36,934 bases of DNA from Bacteroidota bacterium. Its GTDB lineage: Bacteria > Bacteroidota > Bacteroidia > Bacteroidales > VadinHA17. The stretch lies in NCBI GenBank assembly GCA_022561875.1, contig JADFQJ010000023.1, positions 1 through 36,934 of the forward strand, given 5' to 3'. Each line of letters starts with the position of its first letter. Within the stretch, counting starts at the first letter, position 1. A program made the translations under genes and the position numbers. Below the pieces are notes generated by a model, which worked only from the letters and a program-made list of their open reading frames with translations, was not told the DNA's origin and ran no database searches. Of the stretch, positions 14,445 to 32,822 are shown piece after piece.

Positions 14445-15827
14445 ATGGACCTGGGAAAAACACAAAGGGTTTATTTTATTGGTATCGGAGGTATCGGGAT
14501 GAGTGCCCTTGCCAGGTATTTCAAAGCCGGTGGTTTTGATGTGGCAGGATACGACCGTGTTGAATCAGAACTCACATCACAGCTTTTAGCAGAAGGTAAC
14601 ATAATTCATTTTACAGATGCAGTAGATATTATCCCTGAAATATACCGGGATATTGATAAAAGGGAAGAAGTGCTGGTTGTCTATACCCCTGCTGTTCCGG
14701 AGATTCATCAGGAGCTGGCCTTTTTCAGGGAGAAAGGCTTCCGCGTGGTTAAAAGGTCTGAAGTACTTGGATGGATAACACAGGAAGCAAAAAGCATTGC
14801 TGTAGCCGGCACTCATGGAAAAACAACAGTCTCAACTATGATTGCCCATTTACTGAAACAATCAGAACTTGATTGTTCAGCTTTCCTGGGGGGAATCTCA
14901 AGGAATTATAATACTAATTTTCTTTCGGGTAAAAGCGATTTGGTTGTTCTTGAAGCTGATGAATACGACAGATCATTCCTGCAGTTATATCCATGGATGG
15001 CTGTAGTGACAGCAATGGATGCTGATCACCTGGATGTTTATGGGAAAAAAGAAGAAATGGAAAAATCCTTCGTGAAATTTATTGGGCAAATAAAACCGGG
15101 AGGTATCTTGCTGATAAAGAAAGGGCTGCAACTCGAATCTGAAAATCTGCATGATGTGTCGGTTTATACATATGGTGTCTTTGAAAATGCTGACTTTTAT
15201 TCTTATGATGTAACTATTAAGGAAGGATTATATGTGTTTAATGTTCATACTCCTGTTGGAATAATCAAAGAGATACACTTTGGTTGTCCCGGCCGGATGA
15301 ATGTCGAAAATGCAGTTGCTGCTGTTGCAACTCTTACCCTGCTTGGAGTAAAGCAGGAAACAATTAAGAAAGCATTGCTACATTTTACCGGTGTAAAACG
15401 CAGGTTTGAGATTGTTGTTAAGACTGATAAACTGGTTTATATTGACGATTATGCACACCATCCTGAAGAATTGAAAGCGTGTATTGCATCTGTCAGAGAA
15501 ATGTTTCCCGGCAAATCAATAACCGGCGTATTTCAGCCACACCTCTATTCCCGTACACAGGAATTTGCAAATGAGTTTGCCGGTAGTCTTGATAAGCTGG
15601 ATGAGCTTATACTTCTGGATATTTATCCGGCACGGGAGAAACCTGTTCCCGGTGTTACCTCTGAGATGATATTGCGGGAAATGAAAATGAAAAATAAACA
15701 AATGGCAAAAAAGGAGAACCTTACAGATCTACTTGAAAACAAGGAGTTAGAGGTGTTGTTAACCCTTGGAGCCGGAGATATTGATGAATATGTTGAACCT
15801 CTCAAAGAGATGCTTGAAAAAAGATAA
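14445..15827 (+). CDS. murC: UDP-MurNAc:L-alanine ligase MurC
   Basis: The first amino-acid-adding ligase of peptidoglycan synthesis. The sequence has the N-terminal FIGIGGIGMSALARYF (residues 11-26), the P-loop AGTHGKTT (121-128), LVVLEADEYDRSFL, VVTAMDADHLDVYG and the C-terminal YIDDYAHHPEEL and GVFQPHLYSRT blocks. The 460-residue length is normal. It lies one base after murG and seven before ftsQ. No murB or ddl lies beside it, so those steps must be encoded elsewhere. Confidence 0.96.
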   Translation: MDLGKTQRVYFIGIGGIGMSALARYFKAGGFDVAGYDRVESELTSQLLAEGNIIHFTDAVDIIPEIYRDIDKREEVLVVYTPAVPEIHQELAFFREKGFRVVKRSEVLGWITQEAKSIAVAGTHGKTTVSTMIAHLLKQSELDCSAFLGGISRNYNTNFLSGKSDLVVLEADEYDRSFLQLYPWMAVVTAMDADHLDVYGKKEEMEKSFVKFIGQIKPGGILLIKKGLQLESENLHDVSVYTYGVFENADFYSYDVTIKEGLYVFNVHTPVGIIKEIHFGCPGRMNVENAVAAVATLTLLGVKQETIKKALLHFTGVKRRFEIVVKTDKLVYIDDYAHHPEELKACIASVREMFPGKSITGVFQPHLYSRTQEFANEFAGSLDKLDELILLDIYPAREKPVPGVTSEMILREMKMKNKQMAKKENLTDLLENKELEVLLTLGAGDIDEYVEPLKEMLEKR

Positions 15828-15834
15828 AGAAAAA

Positions 15835-16617
15835 ATGAAGCGGATTTTAAAAATATGCGTTTGGATCTTTATCATAACCTACCTGGTTTTGGTCCCTGGT
15901 TTTATTGTGGACAGGTTGGAAAAGACACCTTGCAATTCGATCGGTATCAGTATGCCGGATTCGCTTACAAGCCGGTTTGTTACAAAAGAAGATATACTCA
16001 CTATTATTAATAAACGTGACGAACAGATACTTGGATATCCGATTGGCAGGCTAAATACCCGGGAAATTGAAACCCGGCTTGCTTTACACCCGGCGTTGAA
16101 AAAAGTAGAAGTATATAAAACCATCGGAGGGCAATTACATATTGAGGCAATTCAAAGAGTTCCGGTTGTGAGGATAATGAATAGCAATGGAAGGAGCTAT
16201 TATCTTGACGCGGAAGGGGCAGTTGTTCCGTTTTCTATGAAATTTACTCCCAGAGTACTGGTAGCCAGTGGGTATATTAACGAACCTGCTGAAGTTATGC
16301 GGGAACTTACGATAAAAAATATTGACGCTGACAATAACCTGAAACAAATTCATGAACTGGGTTGTTTTATCAGCTCACATGAATTCTGGCAAGCACAGAT
16401 TGAGCAGATATATGTAAACAAAAAAGGAGAATTTGAACTCGTACCCCGGGTTGGCGCCCACAGGATTATTCTTGGGAGCTTTGAAGATTATAGGGTAAAG
16501 TTCAGGAAACTTTACGCCTTGTATGAAAAAGGATTAAATAAAGTAGGGTGGAACAGGTATGAAACTATTAATCTGAAATTTGACGGACAGATAGTTTGTA
16601 CTAAACGTACTTATTAG
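15835..16617 (+). CDS. ftsQ: Divisome protein FtsQ
   Basis: A bitopic division protein that recruits FtsL and partners. The ATG at 15835 (MKRILKICVWIFIITYLVL) follows murC by seven bases. One membrane helix lies at about residues 4-24. The periplasmic part has a POTRA-like region (FVTKEDILTIIN, LGYPIGRLNTREIETRLALHPAL, VEVYKTIGGQLHIEAIQRVPVVRI) and the FtsQ-type DAEGAVVPFS and VLVASGYI. The 260-residue length is typical. The TAG stop at 16615-16617 falls inside the end of a MITE-like repeat. Confidence 0.9.
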   Translation: MKRILKICVWIFIITYLVLVPGFIVDRLEKTPCNSIGISMPDSLTSRFVTKEDILTIINKRDEQILGYPIGRLNTREIETRLALHPALKKVEVYKTIGGQLHIEAIQRVPVVRIMNSNGRSYYLDAEGAVVPFSMKFTPRVLVASGYINEPAEVMRELTIKNIDADNNLKQIHELGCFISSHEFWQAQIEQIYVNKKGEFELVPRVGAHRIILGSFEDYRVKFRKLYALYEKGLNKVGWNRYETINLKFDGQIVCTKRTY

Positions 16618-16844
16618 TGTCTGTCTATAAAGTCAGAAAGTTTAAATAAATATTAAAAATCACAAATGACAAGCACCAAAATACAAATAAATCTCAAATT
16701 CCAATGACTAAAAAATCAAACAAATTCTTGTATATGTGCTGTTTGGATTTTGTTTTTTCAAACATTGGGTATTATTTGTTATTTGTTTTTTGAGATTTGT
16801 TATTTATTTATAAACGAAATATAGAGTTTATGGACAAACTCTAA
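16614..16844. repeat. MITE-like element with 21-bp imperfect terminal inverted repeats
   Basis: The left end 16614-16634 (TTAGTGTCTGTCTATAAAGTC) and the reverse complement of 16824-16844 agree at 17 of 21 bases. The inner left half is A-rich on the plus strand and the inner right half T-rich, with shared words such as CAAATAA and CCAATG, so the whole could fold into an imperfect long hairpin. It encodes nothing. It fills most of the 271-bp gap between ftsQ and ftsA and supplies the ftsQ stop codon. Confidence 0.7.
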
Positions 16845-16888
16845 TTAGCAAAAAGAAAATTAAATAACCACATTAAAAATCAAATACT

Positions 16889-18187
16889 ATGAACAAAAAA
16901 GACCATATCGTTGCAGCTGTTGATATTGGGACAACAAAGATTGTTTCTATAGTCGGCAGGAAAAATGAGGATGGTAAAATCGAGATTTTAGGACTTAGTA
17001 AAGCTCCCTCAAAAGGTGTGAAACGGGGAGTTGTCCTGAATATTGAAGAAACCGTGAATGCTATCCGTTCAACAGTAGAGGATGTTAAGAAACATTCCGG
17101 AATAGATTTCAACCAGGTTTTTGTTGGAATTGCCGGACAACATGTTCGTAGCATGCGAAACAGAGGATATATTAACAGGGATTCCAATGAAGAGGAGATC
17201 ACCCGGGAAGATATCATCCGGCTGATCAAGGATATGTATAAGATCCCTATTGATGTTGGTGAGGAAATTATTCATGTCCTGCCCCAGAATTTCATTGTTG
17301 ATAATGAAACAGGTGTAAAAAATCCTGTAGGAATGAACGGCAGAAGGCTGGAAGCCAATTTCCATATTGTGATAGGACAGATAGCCTCAGCAAAGAACAT
17401 TGGGAAATGCATTAACAGAGCCGGACTGGAAATAAGGGAGCTTATCCTGGAACCCCTGGCTTCTTCCGAGGCAGTACTTACTGCCGATGAAAAAGAAGCA
17501 GGTGTGGCTTTAGTGGATATTGGTGGAGGAACAACCGATGTTGCTGTTTATTATGATAATATTATCAGGCATACTGCCGTGATACCTTTTGGTGGTAATG
17601 TGGTTACGAAAGATATCAAAGAAGGCTGTGCAATACTCCAGCGGCAGGCTGAATCGTTGAAAATCCAGTTTGGTTCGGCTCTTGGGGATATTTCTCCGGA
17701 TGATAAAGTAGTAACAATACCCGGTATCTCAGGACGGGAACCAAAGGAGATCTCTTTCAAAAGCCTGGCATATATCATCCAGTCGAGGATGGAGGAGATC
17801 ATTGATACAGTTATGTTTGAAATAGAGAACAGTGGTTATTTTGAGAAACTTGCTGCCGGTGTTGTTCTTACAGGTGGGGGCGCCTTGCTCAGGCACCTTT
17901 CACAGCTTGTGAAATTTAAAACAGGGATGGATGTGAGAATAGGTCTGCCAAACGAATTTATTGGTGGTGAGTTAGATGATGATATTAACCAACCACAGTT
18001 TTCTACAAGTGTTGGCTTGGTGCTGAAAGGGTTTGAATACCTGAATGTTTACGAGGTTGAAAAGGAGACTTCACATGAGCTCCTCGAACAGGAAAGTGAA
18101 AACGAAGAGGATAAACCCCGCTTTTTTGAGAAGTGGAAAAAAACATTTAATGAAATGTTTGTAGAAAATGATGTTAGAATGGATTAA
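16889..18187 (+). CDS. ftsA: Actin-like divisome protein FtsA
   Basis: An ATP-binding actin-fold protein that tethers FtsZ to the membrane. The sequence shows the phosphate 1 motif VDIGTTKIVSIVG (about 11-23), the 1C subdomain (KAPSKGVKRGVVLN), VGIAGQHVRS, phosphate 2 ALVDIGGGTTDVAVYY (about 207-222) and the adenosine motif GVVLTGGGALLRHL (about 324-337). The 432-residue length is normal. The C-terminus FFEKWKKTFNEMF fits an amphipathic membrane-targeting helix. ftsZ follows after 49 bases. Confidence 0.95.
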   Translation: MNKKDHIVAAVDIGTTKIVSIVGRKNEDGKIEILGLSKAPSKGVKRGVVLNIEETVNAIRSTVEDVKKHSGIDFNQVFVGIAGQHVRSMRNRGYINRDSNEEEITREDIIRLIKDMYKIPIDVGEEIIHVLPQNFIVDNETGVKNPVGMNGRRLEANFHIVIGQIASAKNIGKCINRAGLEIRELILEPLASSEAVLTADEKEAGVALVDIGGGTTDVAVYYDNIIRHTAVIPFGGNVVTKDIKEGCAILQRQAESLKIQFGSALGDISPDDKVVTIPGISGREPKEISFKSLAYIIQSRMEEIIDTVMFEIENSGYFEKLAAGVVLTGGGALLRHLSQLVKFKTGMDVRIGLPNEFIGGELDDDINQPQFSTSVGLVLKGFEYLNVYEVEKETSHELLEQESENEEDKPRFFEKWKKTFNEMFVENDVRMD

Positions 18188-18236: not shown

Positions 18237-19733
18237 ATGACTGATGAAATAATGAACTTTGATCTGCCGGTTGAAAGGTCGTCAGCCATTAAGGTTCTGG
18301 GTATTGGTGGAGGTGGCAGTAATGCTGTGAATTATATGTACCAGAGAGGTATTAAGGATGTTAATTTTGTAGTGTGTAATACTGATGCACAGGCATTGAA
18401 TACCAGTCCGGTACCTGTGAAAATACAAATCGGGGAGTCTCTCACCGAAGGAAGGGGCGCTGGAAATATACCAGAGATCGGGAAACAAGCTGCTTTGGAA
18501 AATATTGACGACATCATGGATGCCATTTCAAGCAATACAAAAATGGTTTTCCTGACAGCCGGATTGGGTGGCGGTACAGGTACAGGTGCAGCGCCGGTAA
18601 TTGCAAAAGCTACCCGCGAAGCAGGTATCCTGACAGTTGCTATCGTTACAATCCCGTTTAAATTTGAAGGACAGAAAAGAATTAATCAGGCTATAGACGG
18701 TATCAATGAATTAAGACAACATGTCGATTCCCTCCTGGTAATTAATAATGAGAAGCTTAGAGAGATTTTTGGGGATCTTACATTATCAGATGCATTCGGA
18801 CGTGCTGATGATGTGCTTACTATGGCGGCTAAAGGGATAGCTGAAATAATAACCGTTCATGGTTATATCAATGTTGATTTTGCTGATGTACAGACAGTAA
18901 TGACTGATTCGGGTGTGGCAATTATGGGTTCAGGTGTAGCCGAAGGTGAAGGCAGAGCCATGAAGGCAATAGAACAGGCAGTAACCTCTCCTTTGCTTAA
19001 TTCGAATGATATTACCGGAGCAAGAAGTATTTTGCTGAACATAACCTCCGGGTCTGATGAAATCAGTATGGATGAAGTAGGCGAAATAACCGACTATATC
19101 AATGAATTGGCAGCTGAGGATGTACAACTGATATGGGGAACAGGTATTGATGAGTCTCTTGAAGCGAAGGTGACTGTTACAATTATTGCTACCGGGTTCG
19201 AGGCTAACAGTATCCCTGAATTATATGTAAAAAACAGATTCAGGAAAAGTGTAACGTTGTCTGAGAATTCATCGGATGAGGGAAAATGGAAGGATACCAT
19301 ATTTGAAATTAAAGATAAAGATCTTGGCACTTACCGTGTTGATGAATTTAATACCAGTCAACGTACTATTAATTTTAATATGCAGGGCGGGAATGAAGAG
19401 TTTGCAGATGAGAATAAAAGACCGGATCATAATTTATCAAAACATTCAATTGATGCTGAGAAAACCGCTGAACGGATTAGAAAGCTGAAAGAGACACATT
19501 CCGTTATCAAAGAAAAAGGGCTTAAGAATCAGGATATTAAGGACAATATTGATGAACTGGAAAATGAACCGGCTTATGTAAGAAGAAATATCAATATTGA
19601 AAATTCCGTCCATTCTTCCAAACTAAAAGTATCAAGATATTCTCTTGGTGATGAAGAGGATAATGAGGGGGGAAATAAGAAAAAATCAACATTGAGAAAT
19701 GATAATGCATATCTTCATGATAATGTTGATTAA
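18237..19733 (+). CDS. ftsZ: Tubulin-like division GTPase FtsZ
   Basis: The GTPase that forms the Z-ring. It has GIGGGGSNAV (22-31), the tubulin signature GGGTGTGAAP (111-120) and the T7 loop NVDFADVQTVM (about 213-223). The folded core ends near residue 325. A charged, poorly conserved linker of about 140 residues follows. The tail is SRYSLGDEEDNEG and then LRNDNAYLHDNVD at the end, the Bacteroidota type of C-terminal peptide rather than the proteobacterial one. The 498-residue length is on the long side because of the linker. It is the last gene of the cluster and converges with the ppiD-like gene. Confidence 0.97.
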   Translation: MTDEIMNFDLPVERSSAIKVLGIGGGGSNAVNYMYQRGIKDVNFVVCNTDAQALNTSPVPVKIQIGESLTEGRGAGNIPEIGKQAALENIDDIMDAISSNTKMVFLTAGLGGGTGTGAAPVIAKATREAGILTVAIVTIPFKFEGQKRINQAIDGINELRQHVDSLLVINNEKLREIFGDLTLSDAFGRADDVLTMAAKGIAEIITVHGYINVDFADVQTVMTDSGVAIMGSGVAEGEGRAMKAIEQAVTSPLLNSNDITGARSILLNITSGSDEISMDEVGEITDYINELAAEDVQLIWGTGIDESLEAKVTVTIIATGFEANSIPELYVKNRFRKSVTLSENSSDEGKWKDTIFEIKDKDLGTYRVDEFNTSQRTINFNMQGGNEEFADENKRPDHNLSKHSIDAEKTAERIRKLKETHSVIKEKGLKNQDIKDNIDELENEPAYVRRNINIENSVHSSKLKVSRYSLGDEEDNEGGNKKKSTLRNDNAYLHDNVD

Positions 19734-23475: not shown

Positions 23476-23640
23476 AGTGCCTTAAGTTTGGTTTTTATAA
23501 AGTGCCTAAAGTGCCTAAAGTTTTAAATTCTTTCCAATTATTGCAAACTTCTTAGTCCTGCTTTCTAATTGCTTACTAAATTCCTTATTATCCATCTTTA
23601 ATAACTTTAGGCACTCTTAACTTTAGTTCACTTTAAGTAC
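23476..23640. repeat. AAGTGCCTA repeat element, copy A
   Basis: The plus strand has AAGTGCCTA in tandem near 23500-23520. Inverted versions follow near 23604-23636 (CTTTAGGCAC, CTTTAGTTCAC), so the ends can pair. Between them, positions 23547-23575 (CTTAGTCCT, TTTCTAATT, CTTA) match 32793-32821 closely. It occupies nearly all the 183-bp gap between lptC and the small membrane gene. Confidence 0.65.
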
Positions 23641-27598: not shown

Positions 27599-27679
27599 TA
27601 TATGCAAAAATAGAAAAAAAATTCTGTTAATTTTCCGGATTAGCTAATTACCATGCAATACTGGGTTATGGTTATTATT

Positions 27680-27752
27680 GAAGCAATCTTTCATGGTTTT
27701 TCGTAAAGCTTATGACAGTCCATTTATTTAGCATTCCGGTTGTTTTAGGGAG
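27680..27752 (+). repeat. 73-bp dispersed repeat, left copy (inverted pair around mfd)
   Basis: The sequence begins GAAGCAATCTTTCATGG and ends TTTAGGGAG. The reverse complement of 31635-31707 matches it at about 67 of 73 bases by eye. Its end at 27751-27760 reads AGATTGCTTC, the reverse complement of its own first ten bases, so this copy has terminal inverted repeats. It lies just past the 3' end of mfd. It is non-coding. Confidence 0.8.
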
Positions 27753-27790
27753 ATTGCTTCCCACCTTCACTGAGTTACGGCGGGCAAGCG

Positions 27791-31416: not shown

Positions 31417-31663
31417 ATGCAAAAGATTTTTAAGGACAAAATCAAAGAATTAAAAAGTATTTGTTTTATCGTTAGGAGAAAAAAGAGATTTTTTTGAGTA
31501 TCAGGAAAATAAACTTTTACGTAGAGGGATTGAAAGGGAAATTGAAATTATTGGTGAAGCAATGAGTCGGATTCTCAAATTGAACCAAAGTATCAAGATT
31601 AAAAATGCAAGACGAATAGTTGATAATAGGCAAACTCCCAAAAACAACCAGAATGCCAAATAA
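31417..31663 (+). pseudogene. collapsed MntA/HepT toxin-antitoxin remnant
   Basis: From 31417 the frame reads MQKIFKDKIKELKSIC, like the start of MntA-type nucleotidyltransferases, and hits TGA at 31495-31497. In another frame, 31466-31663 reads LGEKRDFFEYQENKLLRRGI and continues with EREIEIIGEA and NARRIVDNR, a clear match to the middle of HepT/DUF86 proteins. The active RNxxxH motif that should follow is missing. The last residues (QTPKNNQNAK) are encoded by the 73-bp repeat. An internal deletion therefore fused the antitoxin start to the toxin middle, and the repeat replaced the toxin end. The HepT identity is solid; the MntA part is tentative. Confidence 0.7.
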
Positions 31664-31707
31664 ACGGACTGTTATAAACTTTACGAAAAACCATGAAAGA
31701 TTGCTTC
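31635..31707 (-). repeat. 73-bp dispersed repeat, right copy (inverted relative to 27680-27752)
   Basis: The reverse complement begins GAAGCAATCTTTCATGG and ends TTTTTGGGAG, differing from the left copy at about six bases. It replaces the 3' end of the hepT remnant and supplies its stop. A REP-like tail continues to about 31728. Confidence 0.8.
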
Positions 31708-31903
31708 ACTTCGTTCGCAAAATCCCTTTACTTATTAAGCTTAAAGGAACACAACCAGAACCGGTCAGACCGCTTGTCTTCATTAGAAAATTTTGATAAA
31801 TGGATATATTTTTTCGGTTCAATAAAATTTCGTATAACTGAAACATAAGACAGGTAACCTGAACTTTATACGTTGCAGCATAAAATATATCCGGACTTAT
31901 TTG

Positions 31904-32675: not shown

Positions 32676-32822
32676 AAAGTGTCTAAATGAAGAAGTGCCT
32701 AAAGTGCCTAAAGTGCCTAAAGTGCCTAAAGTGTTAAAGTGACTAAAATGATCAAAATGCCTAAAGTTTTAAATCAATAATGCTAATTGTGAATTTCTTA
32801 GTCCTTATTTCTAATTACTTAG
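32676..32822. repeat. AAGTGCCTA repeat element, copy B
   Basis: The 9-mer AAGTGCCTA is repeated four times from about 32693, then degrades (AAGTGTTAA, AGTGACTAA, AATGATCAA, AATGCCTAA). The following segment (TTTTAAAT, then CTTAGTCCT, TTTCTAATT, CTTA to 32821) matches copy A at 23521-23575. The end overlaps the last few codons and stop of fbp. Confidence 0.7.

Follow-up and report, generated by a model that had tools for sequence, protein, structure and literature searches.

The window, a stretch of DNA of 36,934 nucleotides, carries between an ftsQ-like gene and ftsA an element that is very probably a MITE with ISNCY-type ends and TANNTA target duplications, that has YTANNTAR as its target, that rebuilt the TAG stop codon of ftsQ on entry and that is likely to be near-neutral. 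The MITE identity had been proposed in a preliminary description of this DNA and is now supported by other copies, by empty sites, by target duplications and by transposase-bearing relatives with the same ends. These results tie a large MITE family to a specific group of insertion sequences and supply its target rule, which explains how such elements get into compact essential operons with the proteins left intact.

The element and the ftsQ stop codon

The element lies in a run of same-strand ORFs that extends from about 4081 through ftsZ. In this division and cell-wall run a Mur ligase gene, ftsA and ftsZ were identified by profile matches and a mraZ-like gene had best scores under the curated cut-offs, while the remaining gene names come from gene order only. 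The ftsQ-like gene gave no Pfam or NCBIfam match. The features of the locus are:

15766-16617, + strand: ftsQ-like gene, named from lying ahead of ftsA and from a colinear gene in relatives
16611-16616, no strand: left target duplication TTATTA, the native end of ftsQ (empty sites of G001, G002 and G005 read CTTATTAGC)
16617-16841, no strand: MITE proper, 225 bp, non-coding, delimited by copies and ends
16617-16634, + strand: left terminal inverted repeat GTGTCTGTCTATAAAGTC (end pattern in 7/7 genus genomes)
16824-16841, - strand: right terminal inverted repeat, GAGTTTGTCCATAAACTC in the inward reading (end-pattern search; by eye like the G001 ISNCY end)
16842-16847, no strand: right target duplication TAATTA, with 1 mismatch against the left copy
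16889-18187, + strand: ftsA (PF14450, PF02491)
18237-19733, + strand: ftsZ (PF00091, PF12327)

The preliminary description had drawn the element as a 231-bp span, 16614-16844. The element is real but its proper extent is 16617-16841, the 'TTA' and 'TAA' at the edges having been assigned to a 6-bp target duplication by comparison with empty sites. The 21-bp imperfect terminal inverted repeats described there are borne out, as 16614-16634 and 16824-16844 match at 17 of 21 positions, a value not reached in any of 10000 mononucleotide shuffles of its sequence. The element (16617-16841) is 76% A+T, and the A-rich and T-rich halves, which were correctly seen to be complementary, pair over much of its length (z of -2.95 for the DNA fold of 16600-16860 and of -3.30 for the RNA fold of 16612-16848, with -3.95 for the G006 copy). 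There is no ORF of 80 aa or more inside 16617-16841, the element being without a transposase gene of its own, and an Rfam search gave 0 matches.

That the element splits ftsQ from ftsA is confirmed by the gap between the two genes, which is 271 bp in the window versus 35-102 bp in four congeners without the element. The stop codon of ftsQ is TAG at 16615-16617, and its third base is the first base (G) of the element. The earlier statement that the end of the element provides this stop is right in that its G completes the TAG, but the TAG was present before insertion: the same ftsQ codon is already a stop in congeners without the element, and the junction changes from TAT TAG before insertion to TAT TA joined to the G of the element after it. 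Read against these congeners, the ftsQ stop is re-formed by the insertion and not newly supplied, and they show the end of the ftsQ protein to be kept despite the insertion.

Copies and spread of the family

The search for other copies with the same ends that had been proposed earlier was run, and it found seven near-full-length copies in the own genome, the window copy included, and the ends in all seven genomes of the genus. The own genome has 20 matching places (E <= 0.01), with overlapping opposite-strand matches counted. With up to 3 mismatches the end pattern occurs 29 times in the own genome versus 11 times for a reversed control; with at most 1 mismatch it occurs 16 times there and is present in 7/7 genus genomes, with 0 reversed-control matches. 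Beyond the genus, a DNA match was found in 12 of 30 near relatives (own genome included), all seven of the genus among them, and the end pattern in 62 of the 295 genomes of an order sample (own genome included; 5 control matches counted), two of which hold more than 160 end-pattern matches each. A scan of named genomes gave at least 117 loci, mostly in Bacteroidota MAGs. Other labels among the matches listed are Treponema/Spirochaetaceae, Nitrospira, Thermodesulfovibrionales, Neomarinimicrobiota, Calditrichota and Ignavibacteria, labels that may reflect mis-binning because most of these records are MAGs.

Several loci show variations in the arrangement of copies. By eye, L100, L101 and L105, from other genomes, have a different inner hairpin (GAGGCTTGCGAAG ... 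GTTTACNNNNGTAAA) between the same ends, so that unrelated cores appear to share these ends. In L136, L137, L140, L142, L143 and L248 MITEs are adjacent and the gap between neighbours is TANNTA-sized. The two copies in L264 (259-409 and 5172-5321) have crossed flanks, TATTTA/TATGTA and TATGTA/TATTTA, the pattern that an inversion between the copies would leave. At a site common to G000 and G006 (L004/L286) the inner part of the MITE seems, by eye, to be inverted between the species.

Empty sites and target duplications

The genus set consisted of seven genomes, G000-G006, G000 being the own genome. Presence of the same sequence in all relatives had been named as a sign of ordinary intergenic DNA; the element is in fact absent at ftsQ-ftsA in four of the seven (G001, G002, G004 and G005), and ftsQ ends at the same codon there. 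The empty sites of G001, G002 and G005 read CTTATTAGC, with a single copy (TTATTAG), and that of G004 reads CATATTAATA. The filled sites are those of G000, of G006 (TAATTA on both sides) and of G003, which has an internal MITE part with no recognisable ends. Single-copy empty sites were also found for copies elsewhere in the own genome. For one, the site reads TACTTA in G005 and G006 and is changed in G004, G001 and G002 not being placed; for another, it reads TATTTA in G002, G005 and G006.

The duplications of the window element, TTATTA and TAATTA, agree at 5 of 6 bases. For the family, duplications were tested on the named loci from 120 exact left ends, the TANNTA flank being part of the search pattern. 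Partner ends within 400 bp were found for 68 of these anchors, and 28 of the 52 without a partner sit within 400 bp of the end of a sequence stretch. The right flank is TANNTA in 55 of the 68 pairs, and the middle bases NN are equal on the left and right in 48 of these 55; 10000 shuffles averaged 9.7 and never exceeded 21. An early pairing set of 57 pairs, from a first look, included some second, spurious left ends.

Target rule and stop codons

The target was read from 107 distinct sites at which the two duplications are identical (TANNTA at 106, GAATTC at one), with 17 fresh sites kept separate; as its two duplications differ, the window element is not one of the 107. The base just outside the duplication, read outward on both strands, is a purine in 167 of 214 cases (28 of 34 at the fresh sites). 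At 31 of the 107 sites another element end adjoins, which itself puts a G outside the duplication, and without sites of this kind the counts are 118 of 152 and, for the fresh set, 25 of 30. As judged from these flanks, the target is shown to be YTANNTAR.

A stop codon is often part of this target, since TA followed by R is TAA or TAG, and such a codon is turned into TAG when the element, whose first base is G, inserts. Of 191 flanks that could be used, 29 have an open frame of 90 codons or more reaching the junction in the TAG frame, and 4 in the other two frames. The stop is also present in the empty-site reading in 28 of the 29; the exception is the G006 copy at the ftsQ site, with a T beyond the right duplication. 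Without neighbouring-element sites the counts are 22 for the TAG frame, 21 of them with a native stop, and 2 for the other frames, and the fresh sites gave 3 native stops and frame counts of 3, 2 and 0. Stop-codon sites make up 25 of the 107 sites versus 19 of 198 other intergenic YTANNTAR sites (p 0.002), and 19 of 76 once sites beside another element end are removed. The fresh set, which is small, gave 3 of 17 versus 3 of 28 (p 0.66). Because the excess was not repeated in these fresh data, we call stop-containing targets common and not sought.

The probable transposase

The ends and duplications suggest that the MITE was most likely moved in trans by an ISNCY-family DDE transposase of the NF033593 type. 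Such an enzyme would act on the MITE ends and insert the element into YTANNTAR, with the 6-bp TANNTA duplicated; a stop codon in the target would be turned into TAG by the first G of the element and the upstream protein would keep its end.

An NF033593-type transposase sits between the same terminal inverted repeats and target duplications in L152 and L272, which are relatives and not the window element itself. In L152 (519-2522, 2004 bp, from an Ignavibacteria MAG) both ends, flanked by TAATTA/TAATTA, enclose a 443-aa ORF whose protein scored 379 bits against NF033593 (ISNCY family transposase; cut-off 325). L272 (G107) has both ends with TAATTA on both sides and a protein with 60% identity to that of L152, on which its assignment to the NF033593 type is based, the model itself having been scored on L152. 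The L152 protein was then sought in 42 chosen genomes with end-pattern matches (7 of the genus and 35 others). It has a match in 11 of them, and an unbroken gene with about 60% identity or more is present in only 4. Two genomes of the window's genus, G001 (74% identity) and G005 (66%), have the gene and one matching end, the other end being off the contig. G246 likewise has one matching end beside the gene, together with a contig break, and in G238 the helper gene is broken and the flanks differ. The NF033593 model has a match above cut-off in three of the seven genus genomes, namely G001, G005 and G004; the G004 member is distant (27% identical to L152 across the matched region) and no matching ends were seen at it. 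In the own genome, G000, which is 98% complete, the L152 protein has no match and the NF033593 model gave three weak matches, all below cut-off (none in G006), and no co-resident full-length NF033593 helper was found in G000.

Annotated ISNCY elements provide a further comparison. Plasmid records annotated as ISRm17- and ISRtr6-family have the ends GTGCCC(A/G)TCCATAAAC and GTTTCCGTCCAC(G/A)AAC. Their flanks share TAGACTA and TAGCTA, in a register chosen by analogy because the ISRtr6 repeat also permits a reading longer by a few bases. In L378, a third record annotated as ISNCY, the ends are related and the flanks unequal. By eye, the right end of the window element (ATAAACTC, then TATATT) resembles the end of the G001 ISNCY element that lies upstream of its transposase.

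Other candidates were considered and set aside. An IS4-family insertion sequence lies beside a matching end in G266 (L103), where only one end matched; the other 26 of the 27 genomes searched for it gave 3 weak matches and, in 23, none. The 1596-bp end pair in L198 proved on reading to be two MITEs around a LacI-type-looking gene, and each of the insertion-sequence-length pairs in G235 (L132 and L134) turned out to be two MITEs, inspection of the ORFs by eye revealing no transposase. For the genus and G062, no end pair of insertion-sequence length was taken up, by eye, among the matches listed. Pairs 683-1460 bp apart in L196, L223, L259 and L261 had no match to the L152 protein, the only protein sought there.

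History of the ftsQ site

The three species with a filled ftsQ site do not form a group on the gene tree. In this tree, built from ftsQ, ftsA and a portion of ftsZ, G000 falls outside the other six and the filled G003 is sister to G002, which is without the element; the tree covers a single linked region, its outgroups are distant, and the species tree may be different. Fourfold-degenerate sites of G000 and G006 are 65% identical. The MITEs at their ftsQ sites are 96% identical with no gaps over 227 columns (94% in the DNA search of near relatives), and those of G000 and G003 are 87% identical over 180 columns. By this measure, the G000 and G006 copies are too alike for the age of the split between the two species. 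The high likeness would be explained by independent insertion at the same target or by gene conversion of an old insertion.

A single ancestral insertion, with later gene conversion between copies and loss in several lineages, is a real though tentative possibility. It is consistent with the right-hand duplication, which is TAATTA in both G000 and G006 and TTATTA at the empty site. It also fits with two more own-genome sites that are occupied in distant congeners, one common to G000 and G006 and one to G000 and G001 (the G000 copy of the latter being a remnant), and these common sites favour some of the insertions being old. What speaks against gene conversion is that species without the element are nested among filled ones, so that about three clean losses would be needed, given that the ftsQ-ftsA-ftsZ tree places G000 outside and empty species among the filled. 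The star-like tree of the MITE copies is also against it.

Possible effect on FtsA and FtsZ expression

It had been suggested that the element alters the ratio of FtsA and FtsZ to the upstream genes through RNA folding or a new promoter. We found nothing to support either route. For a new promoter, the region 16400-17000 has 3 sigma-70-like sites versus 2.7 expected, which is at chance level, one of them (16831-16860) overlapping the right end of the element, and a Bacteroidetes-type promoter pattern has no match in the element. As to RNA folding, a hairpin is predicted, but one is expected of any inverted-repeat element. There are 0 terminator-like sites in 16400-17000. Judged by eye, the sequence leading up to the ftsA start differs little between genus genomes that carry the element and those that do not, which suggests that the operon is probably still read through, with a message that would gain a 225-nt hairpin spacer. 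Given this likeness, the lack of a terminator and the promoter matches at chance, we think the insertion near-neutral; it most likely has a neutral or mild effect on mRNA processing. A modest RNA effect on neighbours is possible by analogy with ERIC and NEMIS: in the part of PMC2229807 available, effects of ERIC RNA on neighbouring mRNA are reported and effects of NEMIS are proposed.

G006 has a second, related MITE between ftsA and ftsZ, where the gap is 301 bp versus 44-89 bp in the other genus members. These observations could be joined into one claim, that a cross-phylum MITE/ISNCY family, through its stop-prone YTANNTAR target, its rebuilding G, repeated insertion at the ftsQ stop and the ftsA-ftsZ copy in a congener, settles repeatedly between operon genes and may shift the balance of division proteins; taken jointly, we consider this rather doubtful. 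We regard as less probable still, and quite unlikely, that the hairpin is a functional regulatory RNA retained at ftsQ-ftsA to tune FtsA and FtsZ relative to the upstream genes. The RNA folds of the window and G006 copies, the second MITE of G006 and the filling of the site in three of the seven genus genomes by copies 96% (G000-G006) and 87% (G000-G003) alike would fit such a role. Against it, four of the seven genomes are without the element at this site, no terminator was found and the promoter matches are at chance. The likeness of the copies is also family-wide and not specific to the site, because copies elsewhere are equally close: the G000 ftsQ copy is 95.6% identical to another own-genome copy versus 96.0% to the G006 ftsQ copy, and the G003_C229 copy gave 96.2% over 130 columns. 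Ordinary intergenic DNA with chance symmetry, for which nothing speaks except the A+T-richness of the region, is already refuted by the other copies, the empty sites and the duplications and has virtually no probability left. Should the ftsQ site have been filled repeatedly by independent insertion, the genus would offer natural pairs, with and without the element, for the effect of a hairpin spacer on FtsA and FtsZ.

Other repeats in the window

The window holds further repeats. A second mobile element, apparently a broken IS630, lies at 121-1346, where 30-bp inverted repeats (90%) enclose two ORFs with matches to IS630-family transposase, one to its C-terminal part (over the cut-off) and one to its N-terminal part (under it). 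Repeats of a 9-base unit (CCTAAAGTG) occur at 23498-23536 and 32691-32773, with a neighbouring stretch common to both. A 79-nt inverted repeat, 91% complementary (27679-27757 and 31630-31708), flanks the mfd gene.

Comparison with known elements

No description of the window's MITE family was found in the accessible portions of the open-access literature, including PMC4596501, PMC6382973, PMC2229807, PMC3119063 and PMC8147514. According to the available text of PMC6382973, MITEAba12 is, like the window element, short and A+T-rich, with terminal inverted repeats and a duplication length that match those of an insertion sequence. It differs in having 9-bp duplications and ISAba12 as its kin, in contrast to 6 bp and ISNCY here, and the same portion of that paper reports no trend in target sequence, whereas the family described here has YTANNTAR. 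ERIC, Correia/NEMIS and RUP are, as the accessible part of PMC2229807 describes them, intergenic hairpin elements as well; the likeness is one of description and not of sequence kinship. The BrickBuilt elements of Porphyromonas gingivalis are also MITEs of a member of the Bacteroidetes, but their terminal inverted repeats match IS5-family elements and differ from those of the window element, as far as PMC4596501 is available. The ISNCY insertion sequences (NF033593; ISRm17- and ISRtr6-family records) share with the window element GTGYCYGTCCATAAA-type terminal repeats and short TA...TA duplications. The proteins of the plasmid ISNCY elements are less than 60% identical to the L152 transposase (34-36% among the 10 matches listed), and the window element differs from all these insertion sequences in having no transposase gene.
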